Source: a virus
IMG/VR virus record: IMGVR_UViG_3300042563_000114
Span: 1 to 37,168 of that record
Reading direction: 5' to 3' (one strand)
DNA length: 37,168 bases
Shown: piece by piece, positions 2,130 through 32,808 of the stretch
How the letters are laid out: the number at the start of each line of letters is the position of its first letter
How positions within the stretch are numbered: the stretch's first letter is position 1
Translations under genes and position numbers: made by a program
The notes under the pieces: model-generated
Seen by the model: the letters and a program-made list of their open reading frames with translations, nothing else
Told to the model about the DNA's origin: nothing
Databases searched by the model: none

Positions 2130-3527
2130 ATGGCTATTTTCGACATTTTCAAGCGCAATAAAGACCAAAAAAACGAATCTAATACGCTATTTGGGCAATC
2201 TGCGTTAGGTAATAACATCGTTTATCAAGGCGATAATAAGAACCCTAATGTCAATACTCAGATTCTTTATGTAACCACAGGCGCGACCAATAACGCGGGT
2301 CGCCCCGTGGATATGTCATTGCTTACGCGCAATAGCACAATCATGGCTTGCGTTGCCGCAAAAGCCCGCGCCCTATCCCAATTGCCTATTCGCGTGGTTA
2401 GCCAATCAGAAGATGGTACTTATGTCGATGCCATCAAATCGCCGCTAGTTGGCGCACGGGATAAGGCTAAAGCCAAGCAAGTAGCAAACCTTTTGGCGCA
2501 ACCTAACCAATTCCAAAGTACCTACGAATTTTGGTATCAATGGCTAATGTGGTACGAACTTGCGGGCGAAGCATTTACCCTTTGGTGGAGAAAAGACCAA
2601 GAAAGCACAACGGAAACCCCGTTAGAAATGTACTTGCTTGATTCAACTTTGATTGCCGTAACAATCACCCCTGCGCGTTACCCATCGTATCGTTTAAGTA
2701 CGCCCGCCTACGGTTTTAACCGTGATAAACCGCTGAACTTTAACCAAGTGATGCACATTAAGGAAATGAACTGGCAAGGTTCTGCGGGTTTTAACAAAGG
2801 CATTTTGGCGGCAGAACTGGTATCACTTGACCAAGATATTGACCTTTACGCAAACTACATCATGCAGAACGGCGCAAAGCCAAGCGGGATGTTTACTACC
2901 GAAAGTGTTATTCCTGATGGCAAATACAAAGAAATTGCCGCCCGCTTGAAAGAAGCATGGTCGGCAATGGTTTCTAGCCGCCCAAGCGACCCAAGTAAGG
3001 CGGGTCAGGGTATGTTGCTAGACCAAGGCATGAAGTACACCCCGTTAGATATGTTGACCCTGCAAGATACCGATGCGGCTAAGTTAAAAGAACAAACCAT
3101 GAAACGAATTTGCGGTTTGTTTGGCGTTCCCGCGGCAATGATTGGTATCGGGGATTCCAAGTACAACAATACCCAAACAATGATGGATGAATTCTATAAA
3201 TCCACAATGTACCCAACTTTAATTAACATTCAGCAGAAATTAAAACAACATTTGTTTGTTGGCTACCCTAATTTGTGCATTGAATTTGATACGCGCAATT
3301 TCTTAAAAGGCGCACCGTTAGACCAAATGAATTTTGCTACCGCAGGTGTTTCAAACGGGATAATGACCCCCAACGAAGCGCGTGAATACTTGGGGATGCC
3401 CAATATTGACGGGGCAAACGAATTGATTGATAAAGGTGGGAAAGATAAACCGATTGTAGGAACATCCCCGCAAGATACGGGCGGGGGCGGTGGAAACCAA
3501 ACCCGAAAAATGAATATCGGCAAGTGA
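2130..3527 (+). CDS. Portal protein, HK97 family
   Basis: 465 residues from the ATG chosen here; a TTG twelve bases upstream is in frame but less likely. Portal proteins form the dodecameric ring at one capsid vertex through which DNA passes and to which the neck attaches. Family marks include an N-terminal segment NSTIMACVAAKARALSQLPI, a central WYQWLMWYELAGEAFTLWWR, VMHIKEMNWQGSAGFNKG, and the late FGVPAAMIGIGDSKYNNTQT typical of HK97-type portals. The C-terminus ends in a glycine-rich tail (GGGGGNQTRK), probably disordered. Its place between the large terminase and the prohead protease supports the call. Confidence 0.93.
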   Translation: MAIFDIFKRNKDQKNESNTLFGQSALGNNIVYQGDNKNPNVNTQILYVTTGATNNAGRPVDMSLLTRNSTIMACVAAKARALSQLPIRVVSQSEDGTYVDAIKSPLVGARDKAKAKQVANLLAQPNQFQSTYEFWYQWLMWYELAGEAFTLWWRKDQESTTETPLEMYLLDSTLIAVTITPARYPSYRLSTPAYGFNRDKPLNFNQVMHIKEMNWQGSAGFNKGILAAELVSLDQDIDLYANYIMQNGAKPSGMFTTESVIPDGKYKEIAARLKEAWSAMVSSRPSDPSKAGQGMLLDQGMKYTPLDMLTLQDTDAAKLKEQTMKRICGLFGVPAAMIGIGDSKYNNTQTMMDEFYKSTMYPTLINIQQKLKQHLFVGYPNLCIEFDTRNFLKGAPLDQMNFATAGVSNGIMTPNEAREYLGMPNIDGANELIDKGGKDKPIVGTSPQDTGGGGGNQTRKMNIGK

Positions 3528-30700: not shown

Positions 30701-31177
30701 ATGAAAGAAAATCTTTCACATGAATTACTTACAGAAAATGTTTTTTATGATTCTGTAACTGGAACTTTTGTTTGGAACAAAAAAGGCAAAAACAGAATTG
30801 TTGGCAAAAGTATAGGAAGAAAACATTGCAAAGGTTATTTGCAAGTTTGGTTTAACGGATACTTTTACATGGCTCATAGACTTGCTTGGTTTTATGTTTA
30901 TAAAAAATGGCCTACTCAATATCTTGACCATATAAATGAAAACAAACTTGATAACAGAATTGAAAATTTAAGAGATGTTTCTCATTCTGTAAATTTGGCA
31001 AATCAAAAAAATCCACAAAAAAACAATACTTCCGGTTTCAGAGGAGTTTCATACAAAAAAAGAATTTCTAAATTTCATGCTCAAATTTTTGTTAACAAAA
31101 AATACAATTCTTTGGGATATTTTGATAGTGCAGAAGAAGCGCATAAGGCTTACTTAAAATTTAAAGAGCAAATCTGA
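30701..31177 (+). CDS. HNH homing endonuclease with AP2 domain
   Basis: 158 residues. The HNH part reads AHRLAWFYVYKKWPTQYLDHINENKLDNRIENLRDVS, with the D-H-I-N.....N.-N-L core of the HNH_3 type; the C-terminal AP2 domain (SGFRGVSYKKRISKFHAQIF, then YFDSAEEAHKAYLKF) binds DNA. Such free-standing enzymes spread by cutting related phages that lack them. The gene is clearly more AT-rich than its neighbours, with long A-runs, and lies directly behind the terminator of the small RNA, so it looks recently inserted. Its stop overlaps the replication gene start (TGATG). Confidence 0.9.
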   Translation: MKENLSHELLTENVFYDSVTGTFVWNKKGKNRIVGKSIGRKHCKGYLQVWFNGYFYMAHRLAWFYVYKKWPTQYLDHINENKLDNRIENLRDVSHSVNLANQKNPQKNNTSGFRGVSYKKRISKFHAQIFVNKKYNSLGYFDSAEEAHKAYLKFKEQI

Positions 31178-31929
31178 TGCACTACTACCAATTTCATATT
31201 GGCGACTACATAAGCCATACAAGGCATCTTTCTTTGATGGAAGATTTAGCCTATAGGCGGTTACTTGATTTCTATTTTTTGCATGAACAAGCAATTAAAC
31301 ATCGGGATGCCGCCCGACAAATTGGGATGCGCGAACATGAAGAAGATGTAATGACCGTGCTAAACGAATTCTTTATTTCTACGGAAGATGGGTTTGTTAA
31401 CCCCCGTGCGGATAAAGAAATTAAACAGTACAAAGAATTTTCAGAAGCGGGTAAACGTGGGGCGGCTAAGAGGTGGGGAACACCCCCTAATGGGGAGGCT
31501 AGTAGCCCCCCTAATGCTACCCCAATAGCAACCAATAACCATAAACCAATAACCAATAACCATAAGAAAGAACAACGCGGCTCACGCCTCGCCAATGATT
31601 TGTTTTTTCCAAAAGATTGGTGCGATTTTTTAGTTGAACAACGCCCCGAACTAAACGCACAAAAAACCTTTGACCAATTTAAAGATTATTGGATTTCACA
31701 GGCAGGGCAAAAGGGCGTTAAGTTGGATTGGTTTGCAACATGGCGCAATTGGGTAAGAAGCACAAACGCACCCAAACAAAACCATGTTGATATAGCCCGC
31801 GTAACCGTGCCAATGGACAATCGGCCCGACCCCGCGTTAGAAAAAATTAAAGAAGATTCTTTACGCGCCGTACCGCCATCATTGGAAGTATTAGCAAAGA
31901 TGGCAGCATTGCGTAAAGTAAATATATGA
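31177..31929 (+). CDS. Replication protein with DUF1376 (YdaU-like) domain
   Basis: 250 residues. The opening YYQFHIGDYISHTRHLSLMEDLAYRRLLDFYFLHEQ is the hallmark of DUF1376, found in phage replication initiation proteins. The N-terminal 90 residues are winged-helix like; a Pro/Asn-rich linker (about 100-130) follows, then a second part (LFFPKDWCDFLVEQRPELN, DYWISQAGQKGVKLDWFATWRNWVR) typical of the replisome-loading end of such proteins. It probably binds the phage origin and recruits host replication enzymes. It overlaps the methyltransferase start as ATGA. An origin could lie inside the gene, possibly in the ACCAATAACC repeats near 31530-31560. Confidence 0.8.
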   Translation: MHYYQFHIGDYISHTRHLSLMEDLAYRRLLDFYFLHEQAIKHRDAARQIGMREHEEDVMTVLNEFFISTEDGFVNPRADKEIKQYKEFSEAGKRGAAKRWGTPPNGEASSPPNATPIATNNHKPITNNHKKEQRGSRLANDLFFPKDWCDFLVEQRPELNAQKTFDQFKDYWISQAGQKGVKLDWFATWRNWVRSTNAPKQNHVDIARVTVPMDNRPDPALEKIKEDSLRAVPPSLEVLAKMAALRKVNI

Positions 31930-32696
31930 ACAAGGAGAATTTAAATGAGTTGGCTCTTTTCGCGGGTGCTGGTGGAGGAATTCTTGGGGGAAAACTTCTT
32001 GGATGGCGAACAGTTTGCGCCGTTGAATGGGAACAGTATCCCGCAAGCGTATTGTGCGCCCGACAAAATGACGGACTTCTCCCGCCTTTCCCAGTTTGGG
32101 ATGACGTACAAACCTTTGACGGAAAACCGTGGCGAGGAATTGTTGATGTTGTATCGGGGGGCTTTCCATGCCAAGATTTGTCAGCAGGAGGAGGAAGGGC
32201 GGGACTTGATGGCGAACGAAGTGGATTATGGAAAGAGATGGTCAGGATTGTTGGCGAGGTTAGACCAAGATTTGTGTTTGTGGAAAATTCCCCAATGCTC
32301 GTTAATAACGGACTCGACCGAGTGCTTACAGACCTTTCCAAATTGGGGTTCGATGCAAAATGGGGCATTGTGGGAGGCGATGCCGTTGGTGCGCCCCATA
32401 GAAGGGAAAGATTTTGGTTGGTTGCCAACGCCCATAGCCACAGATTACATGAACGGGCAAGTAAACGGGATAACTTACACAGGCAAAAGATTTGTGAGAA
32501 CAAGCAAAAAAACTGGAACGGAGTTTGGCGCGAAACTGACAAGTGCTTATCGTTTGATGACTGGAAAGCGTTTGCCCGCAAGTTTTACGGAATGGATGAT
32601 GGGATGGCCTCAAGAATGGACAGAGTTAAAGCCTGTGGAAACGGGCAAATTCCACAAGTGGCAGCAACTGCATGGAGAATGTTAAGTGACACATGA
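31926..32696 (+). CDS. Cytosine-5 DNA methyltransferase
   Basis: 256 residues, short for the family but with the key motifs: I (LALFAGAGGGILGG, residues 9-22, S-adenosylmethionine binding), IV (SGGFPCQDLS, catalytic C82), VI (FVFVENSP, E120-N121), VIII (APHRRERFWLVA) and X (CGNGQIPQVAATAW near residue 238). The target recognition part is small. The enzyme should methylate cytosine in phage DNA to evade host restriction. The start ATG is coupled to the previous stop but has no ribosome site; AAGGAG just inside is better placed for the other frame. A second long frame covers nearly the whole gene. Confidence 0.92.
   Translation: MNKENLNELALFAGAGGGILGGKLLGWRTVCAVEWEQYPASVLCARQNDGLLPPFPVWDDVQTFDGKPWRGIVDVVSGGFPCQDLSAGGGRAGLDGERSGLWKEMVRIVGEVRPRFVFVENSPMLVNNGLDRVLTDLSKLGFDAKWGIVGGDAVGAPHRRERFWLVANAHSHRLHERASKRDNLHRQKICENKQKNWNGVWRETDKCLSFDDWKAFARKFYGMDDGMASRMDRVKACGNGQIPQVAATAWRMLSDT
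31945..32685 (+). CDS. Overprinted reading frame within the methyltransferase gene
   Basis: A 246-codon frame, +1 relative to the methyltransferase and covering almost all of it. AAGGAG lies seven bases before its ATG, the best ribosome site in this neighbourhood, and its stop is immediately followed by the GTG of the next gene (TAAGTG). The product is protein-like: it contains FGMTYKPLTENRGEELLM, WKIPQCSL, FPNWGSMQNG, WLPTPIATDY and a Trp-rich end (FTEWMMGWPQEWTELKP, ETGKFHKWQQLHG). From memory, proteins with such WPTP and MGWP..W motifs are annotated in other phages near methyltransferases. Function unknown. Caution: a minus-strand frame here is also long. Confidence 0.55.
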   Translation: MSWLFSRVLVEEFLGENFLDGEQFAPLNGNSIPQAYCAPDKMTDFSRLSQFGMTYKPLTENRGEELLMLYRGAFHAKICQQEEEGRDLMANEVDYGKRWSGLLARLDQDLCLWKIPQCSLITDSTECLQTFPNWGSMQNGALWEAMPLVRPIEGKDFGWLPTPIATDYMNGQVNGITYTGKRFVRTSKKTGTEFGAKLTSAYRLMTGKRLPASFTEWMMGWPQEWTELKPVETGKFHKWQQLHGEC

Positions 32697-32808
32697 AATG
32701 GCGATGCGAATATTGGACAGGGTGCGCGATGGGGTTAGTTACCCACAATGGGTAATCCGTAAAGCCTTGGAACTAACTGGCGACATTGATGGACATGGAA
32801 CACTTTAA
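32686..32808 (+). CDS. Small protein, 40 residues, GTG start
   Basis: (V/M)THEMAMRILDRVRDGVSY then PQWVIRKALELTGDIDGHGTL. GGAG stands eight bases before the GTG, which follows directly on the stop of the overprinted frame. The pattern of an N-terminal helix, PxxxIxxALxxTGD and a short end resembles small phage proteins with an ALxxTGDL ending. No enzymatic motif. It overlaps the following gene. Confidence 0.6.
   Translation: MTHEMAMRILDRVRDGVSYPQWVIRKALELTGDIDGHGTL

Follow-up and report, generated by a model that had tools for sequence, protein, structure and literature searches.

A cytosine-5 (C5) methyltransferase gene in a phage genome very probably encodes, judging from its sequence, the two chains of a two-subunit C5 methyltransferase in reading frames that are overprinted on each other almost completely. 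The gene lies in viral record IMGVR_UViG_3300042563_000114, which was analyzed over its whole length of 37,168 bases (hereafter, the window). The presence of structural genes (terminase, portal, major head, tape measure, and tail fibre) and of RecE-like and Erf-like recombination genes identifies the window as a tailed phage. A previous sequence-only reading had pointed to two plus-strand frames of 256 and 246 codons sharing over 740 bases, and this was confirmed. The inner frame, beta, begins 19 bases 3' of the start of the outer frame, alpha, stands in the +1 relation to it, and lies wholly inside it, taking up 246 codons against the 256 of alpha, with 741 bases common to both. The features of the locus are the following.

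31177-31929, plus strand: upstream gene, DUF1376, ending in the ATGA overlap (sequence)
31926-31929, plus strand: ATGA, start codon of alpha sharing bases with the DUF1376 stop (sequence)
31926-32696, plus strand: alpha chain, cytosine-5 methyltransferase with motifs I-VIII and X but without motif IX (PF00145, phrog_363, AlphaFold2, Foldseek)
31932-31937, plus strand: AAGGAG, putative ribosome-binding site for beta inside the alpha coding sequence (sequence; start contexts of relatives)
31945-31947, plus strand: inner ATG of beta (conserved in 102/102 relatives aligning from beta residue 1)
31945-32685, plus strand: beta chain, inner +1 frame carrying the putative motif IX block (stop counts, phrog_1008, phrog_26627, register of the loci)
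32422-32433, plus strand: LPTP block of beta, with P161, T162, and P163 near-invariant, overlapping the end of alpha motif VIII (alignments)
32572-32619, plus strand: beta LPASFTEWMMGWPQEW, putative motif IX block, with E216, M219, P222, and W225 nearly invariant (hhalign)
32637-32654, plus strand: motif X of alpha, GNGQIP, with N239 invariant, overlapping the C-terminal tail of beta (alignment)

The inner frame is open beyond chance, and selection keeps both frames. Synonymous codons of alpha were permuted with the alpha protein and codon make-up kept. In the window gene, these shuffles gave a mean of 6.1 stops in the +1 frame, where none occurs (P < 0.0005), and 16.8 stops in the +2 frame, where 21 were seen. 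The least biased sample comprised 80 relatives picked by the methyltransferase frame alone. In all 80, the +1 frame was open over essentially the whole gene (203 to 320 codons), and the +2 frame was never open for more than 81 codons. Stops in the inner frame of close relatives with an intact methyltransferase, which the sequence-only reading had named as evidence against a second gene, were thus found in none of the 80. Removal of near-copies left 59 genes, including that of the window, and the +1 frame was open in 59/59, with 0 stops against 315 expected and only 0.09 fully open genes expected; the expected stops were distributed across all parts of the gene. In a larger set, preselected for a complete beta, 152/152 genes had the +1 frame open, with 0 stops versus about 780 expected (0 versus 87 in the first 40 codons). 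A control family of 30 ordinary one-chain C5 methyltransferases, taken from the class of the Pseudomonas genome, had longest +1 open stretches with a median of 66 codons, covering a mean of 21% and a maximum of 49% of the gene.

On the opposite strand, the three antisense frames of the relatives carried stops at shuffle expectation (6.05 versus 6.05, 4.42 versus 4.18, and 8.56 versus 8.24), which rules out a general composition bias. A long minus-strand frame (31847-32581) does exist in the window, and the caution once drawn from it, that composition alone could favor open frames, was sound; the frame is not conserved, and the antisense stop counts show no sign of selection.

The start regions of the two frames differ. 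The AAGGAG sits seven bases 5' of the inner ATG, and the alpha ATG at 31926 has no such ribosome site, both as read earlier from the letters; the latter overlaps the stop of the DUF1376 gene as ATGA, a layout typical of translational coupling. The start region of the relatives mostly reads ATGAATGAGTTGG or a close variant, in which the inner start follows the outer start at an offset of four bases (ATGAATG) and one ribosome site is located upstream. In every one of the 102 relatives whose alignment begins at beta residue 1, the inner ATG was kept. Over this ATG, the Asn codon of alpha is AAT in 59/59 genes, while elsewhere AAT and AAC are used 293 to 311, and the ATG is retained where the next alpha residue departs from Glu (AATGTC, AATGGC, and AATGAC).

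Third-position divergence of the methyltransferase was about halved. At 80-85% protein identity, third positions of alpha differed by about 0.20-0.26, compared to 0.42-0.56 in flanking genes of similar identity, with the exception of the partial stretch of locus L015 (0.40). Such a reduction is predicted by double coding, because the third position of alpha is the second position of beta. The column-wise synonymous profile, a check that the sequence-only reading had proposed, is supportive only: alpha showed 0.62 of the expected change versus 0.81 and 0.82 in two neighbors, and the third control, a small one of 8 sequences, showed 0.61. Substitutions classed by the inner wobble position did not set this gene apart from the flanking genes.

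Alpha was matched by Pfam PF00145 (E value of 4.7e-30), covering profile positions 5-181 of 324 only, and by phrog_363 (2e-62). The motifs GGFPCQ, ENSP, and GAPHRRER are present and near-invariant in the alignment, and alpha carries the C5 signature (PF00145 with PCQ, ENV/ENS, and motif VIII). Motif IX and a small domain were not found within the same chain. The AlphaFold2 model of alpha had a mean pLDDT of 80, with residues 1-170 and 240-254 confident, residues 175-199 and 221-237 below 50, and the remainder of 175-237 at about 63-65. Foldseek matched it to M.HaeIII/M.HhaI (E value of 3e-14), with an alignment of about 170 of 327 residues that takes in roughly half of these enzymes. On sequence and model, alpha thus lacks motif IX and the small domain. 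Motif X of the window (GNGQIP) is on alpha, and beta ends without motif X.

Beta was matched by phrog_1008 (1.4e-18) and phrog_26627 (2.3e-11), and searches of Pfam, NCBIfam, and PDB sequences with beta, singly and as a profile, gave no usable match. Modeled alone with AlphaFold2, it reached a pLDDT of 58 and a pTM of 0.27, with residues 1-100 mostly below 55, and the fold search with this poor model had a best match no better than an E value of 3. The N-terminal half resembles nothing known, is missing from relatives with a short beta, and is unstructured in the model. Conserved points of beta are SWKT, PxWGxMxxG, LPTP, and the C-terminal NPxxxEWxMGWPxxWTxL; the tryptophan-rich blocks, which the sequence-only reading linked to separately annotated phage proteins, are indeed conserved in the family, and some phage annotations list inner-frame relatives as proteins in their own right.

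The whole-length beta profile had no match to C5 methyltransferases; its C-terminal part alone could be aligned. By hhalign against 28 ordinary C5 methyltransferases, the end block landed on motif IX (RxLTxRExARLQGFPDxF) for 4/4 query lengths. The 32-residue block scored 17.4 versus a maximum of 15.5 in 200 column permutations (0/200 reached it); the match is short, and on its own the E value of 0.013 is weak. Motif IX is the best reading of the end block, and beta probably contributes to target recognition. The sequence-only reading took this block for a shifted reading of motif X; the profile alignment favors motif IX as its identity.

Between LPTP and motif IX, the length of beta varies among relatives. 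At L068, L077, L167, and L175, this stretch contains several WPTPxxxD repeats, most of them in L175, and it may bear on target recognition.

A tblastn search of annotated phages returned 75 records, 16 of them across most of the length at 28-46% identity. The outer frame is annotated in MW202462 and Salmonella S9-5, and the inner frame is annotated as hypothetical proteins in Vibrio 1.236, Pseudomonas phPA-G, and Mycobacterium XFactor, so that the phage database search advised by the sequence-only reading did yield separately annotated homologs. Scans of viral and genome contigs enlarged the set to 276 loci from phages, bacteria, and archaea, including Pseudomonadota, Bacteroidota, Verrucomicrobiota, and Patescibacteria, and 276/276 were in the +1 register. 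The beta profile matched 14/369 genomes of the class of Pseudomonas genome G001. In the alpha tree, the root of which is arbitrary, most short betas, which start in mid-gene, grouped apart from a large clade with full-length beta, and the short or full label required four changes.

In four loci, from a Corndog-group phage (L008), Spirochaetia (L167), Paraburkholderia (L175), and an archaeon (L193), the alpha frame terminates once motif VIII is complete, and it is beta that contains the motif IX block and, behind it, motif X (GNGQVP or GNGVCP). Since alpha ends before motif X, beta would have to be translated there for the enzyme to have this motif. Motif X can therefore come from either frame, and we regard this sequence pattern as the strongest single argument for beta. 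The absence of inner-frame homologs outside forced overlaps, which the sequence-only reading had set against its own proposal, was not observed, as the beta-type region of these loci extends past the stop of alpha.

Taken with the shuffles and the control family, the four loci support the earlier suggestion that a real second gene is overprinted on the methyltransferase. The idea of an unrelated function fits less well, and beta most likely completes the methyltransferase by supplying its missing part. Alpha would give the catalytic domain, with the AdoMet site, the PCQ cysteine loop, motif VIII, and motif X, and the C-terminal half of beta would supply the motif IX block, and probably part of target recognition, both missing from alpha. 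If both chains are translated and alpha needs beta, their association would form the active methyltransferase, which would presumably shield phage DNA from host restriction. Alpha is likely started by coupling with the upstream gene at ATGA, with beta initiating at its own AAGGAG-ATG. The paired ATGAATG starts of most relatives, behind one ribosome site, would yield both chains off one message.

Two-chain C5 methyltransferases have precedents. The beta chain of EcoHK31I has 176 codons and an internal start. According to Lee, Kam and Shaw in 1995, this small chain is reportedly encoded in another frame inside the gene of the large chain, which the window resembles with beta in +1 and 741 shared bases. 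M.EcoHK31I (YGGCCR) is made as two polypeptides, with motifs I-VIII and X on the large chain and motif IX only on the small chain (PMC3404938), the same motif layout as in alpha and beta. It differs from the window in that the overlap here is nearly complete, with beta at 246/256 codons and starting 19 bases after alpha, and in that the gene belongs to a phage and no linked endonuclease was recognized among its neighbors. In M.AquI, which likewise needs two chains for one enzyme, the split lies within the variable region and the small chain carries motif X as well as motif IX (PMC3404938). In contrast, the window keeps motif X (GNGQIP) on alpha and is not of the AquI type; the four loci whose motif X lies on beta are AquI-like in motif content, but their genes overlap. 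Genes 7 and 6 of the Corndog-group mycobacteriophage YungJamal, both annotated as methylases, share motifs I-VIII on alpha and LPTP and EWMMGWP on a +1 beta with the window, but overlap by only about 200 bases and have motif X in beta. M.HhaI, M.HaeIII, and Dcm correspond to alpha in the catalytic domain with motifs I-VIII and X and differ in that their single chain also includes the small domain and motif IX; among ordinary one-chain enzymes, no open +1 frame was present in the 30 tested.

Three other explanations were weighed against a two-chain enzyme. It is improbable that alpha and beta are two real but functionally separate proteins, with beta acting outside the methyltransferase as an overprinted accessory, e.g., a host restriction inhibitor or a regulator. 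Such a role would suit the N-terminal half of beta, with its lack of known resemblance and its absence from short-beta relatives, and the limitation of the motif IX match to the C-terminal block. It is at odds with the occurrence of beta with alpha in the same register at 276/276 loci, with the exact correspondence between the part missing from alpha and the part matched by beta, with the placement of motif X in either frame, and with the EcoHK31I precedent (PMC3404938).

Programmed frameshifting, by which a single chain would cross from alpha into beta past motif VIII and return ahead of motif X, is very improbable. Two shifts could in principle join motifs I-VIII (alpha), IX (beta), and X (alpha), and one metagenome contig (L015, the same as L199) runs alpha straight into beta via an indel. 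However, beta has its own conserved ATG and ribosome site and is open along the whole gene, none of which a shift product needs, two shifts within one short gene are unlikely, and EcoHK31I consists of two polypeptides (PMC3404938).

The main alternative, that the methyltransferase alone is real and that its protein and codon usage force the inner frame open, agrees with the strong conservation of the overlapped alpha protein, a G+C content of about 50%, the lack of Pfam, NCBIfam, and PDB matches to beta, and the outcome of the inner-wobble class test, but it was rejected as scarcely credible on the alpha-preserving shuffles (315 stops given, 0 seen), the ordinary C5 methyltransferases without an open +1 frame, and the four loci with motifs IX and X in beta only, past the end of alpha, and it conflicts with the persistence of the inner ATG where alpha changes.

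The two-chain enzyme of the window is set apart from known overlapped C5 methyltransferases by the near-complete overlap, the paired starts, and the very wide occurrence. In a literature search of open-access scope, no description of such an overlap in phages came up. We hold it to be an evenly balanced proposition that these genes form a widespread, largely unrecognized family in which both subunits of a heterodimer are overwritten along the whole gene, with paired ATGs behind one ribosome site, and in which the N-terminal half of beta, over alpha motifs I-IV, was added later and is under selection for a function of its own, by which the clade moved from partly to fully double-coded.

Long overlaps on one strand are a contested subject in prokaryotes, and only a few have gained acceptance. 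In the present case, hundreds of diverged sequences and a matched control family support the overlap, and a likely function links the two frames in a single enzyme. The overlap implies that a motif missing from an enzyme can be encoded in a different frame of its gene, and double coding would explain why databases usually list one frame or the other, often as a hypothetical protein. Methyltransferases of phages and bacteria annotated from one frame may be inactive if cloned or expressed without the partner. The loci also provide a large natural data set on the evolution of two proteins in one stretch of DNA.

Several loci depart from the common arrangement. Three picked by the beta profile (L128, L134, and L161) have an in-frame stop inside alpha with beta open, and could be decaying prophages, sequence errors, or cases of beta outliving alpha. 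In L015, the indel at about 3160-3250 fuses the alpha N terminus to the beta frame and leaves alpha broken, possibly through an assembly error in the metagenome contig. In the AT-rich locus of the uncultured phage KM23-C739 (L011, 1866-2791), the N terminus of alpha occupies one frame and the remainder another, and C-terminal beta has no interruption, either by sequence error or as a further variant.

At the 3' end, the stop of beta (TAA, 32683-32685) directly abuts GTG at 32686, the TAAGTG junction noticed earlier, and this GTG opens only a 40-codon frame. The frame at 32686-32808 has 38-40 codons, with an ATG (32692-32694 region) that overlaps the stop of alpha as ATGA and the alternative GTG adjoining the stop of beta. 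The ATGA at the alpha stop is also found in many relatives, and for this reason alpha and the gene after it may be coupled. An HNH endonuclease of the homing type with an AP2 DNA-binding domain (HNH_3, 2e-11; AP2, 2e-8) is encoded at 30701-31177, two genes upstream of the methyltransferase.
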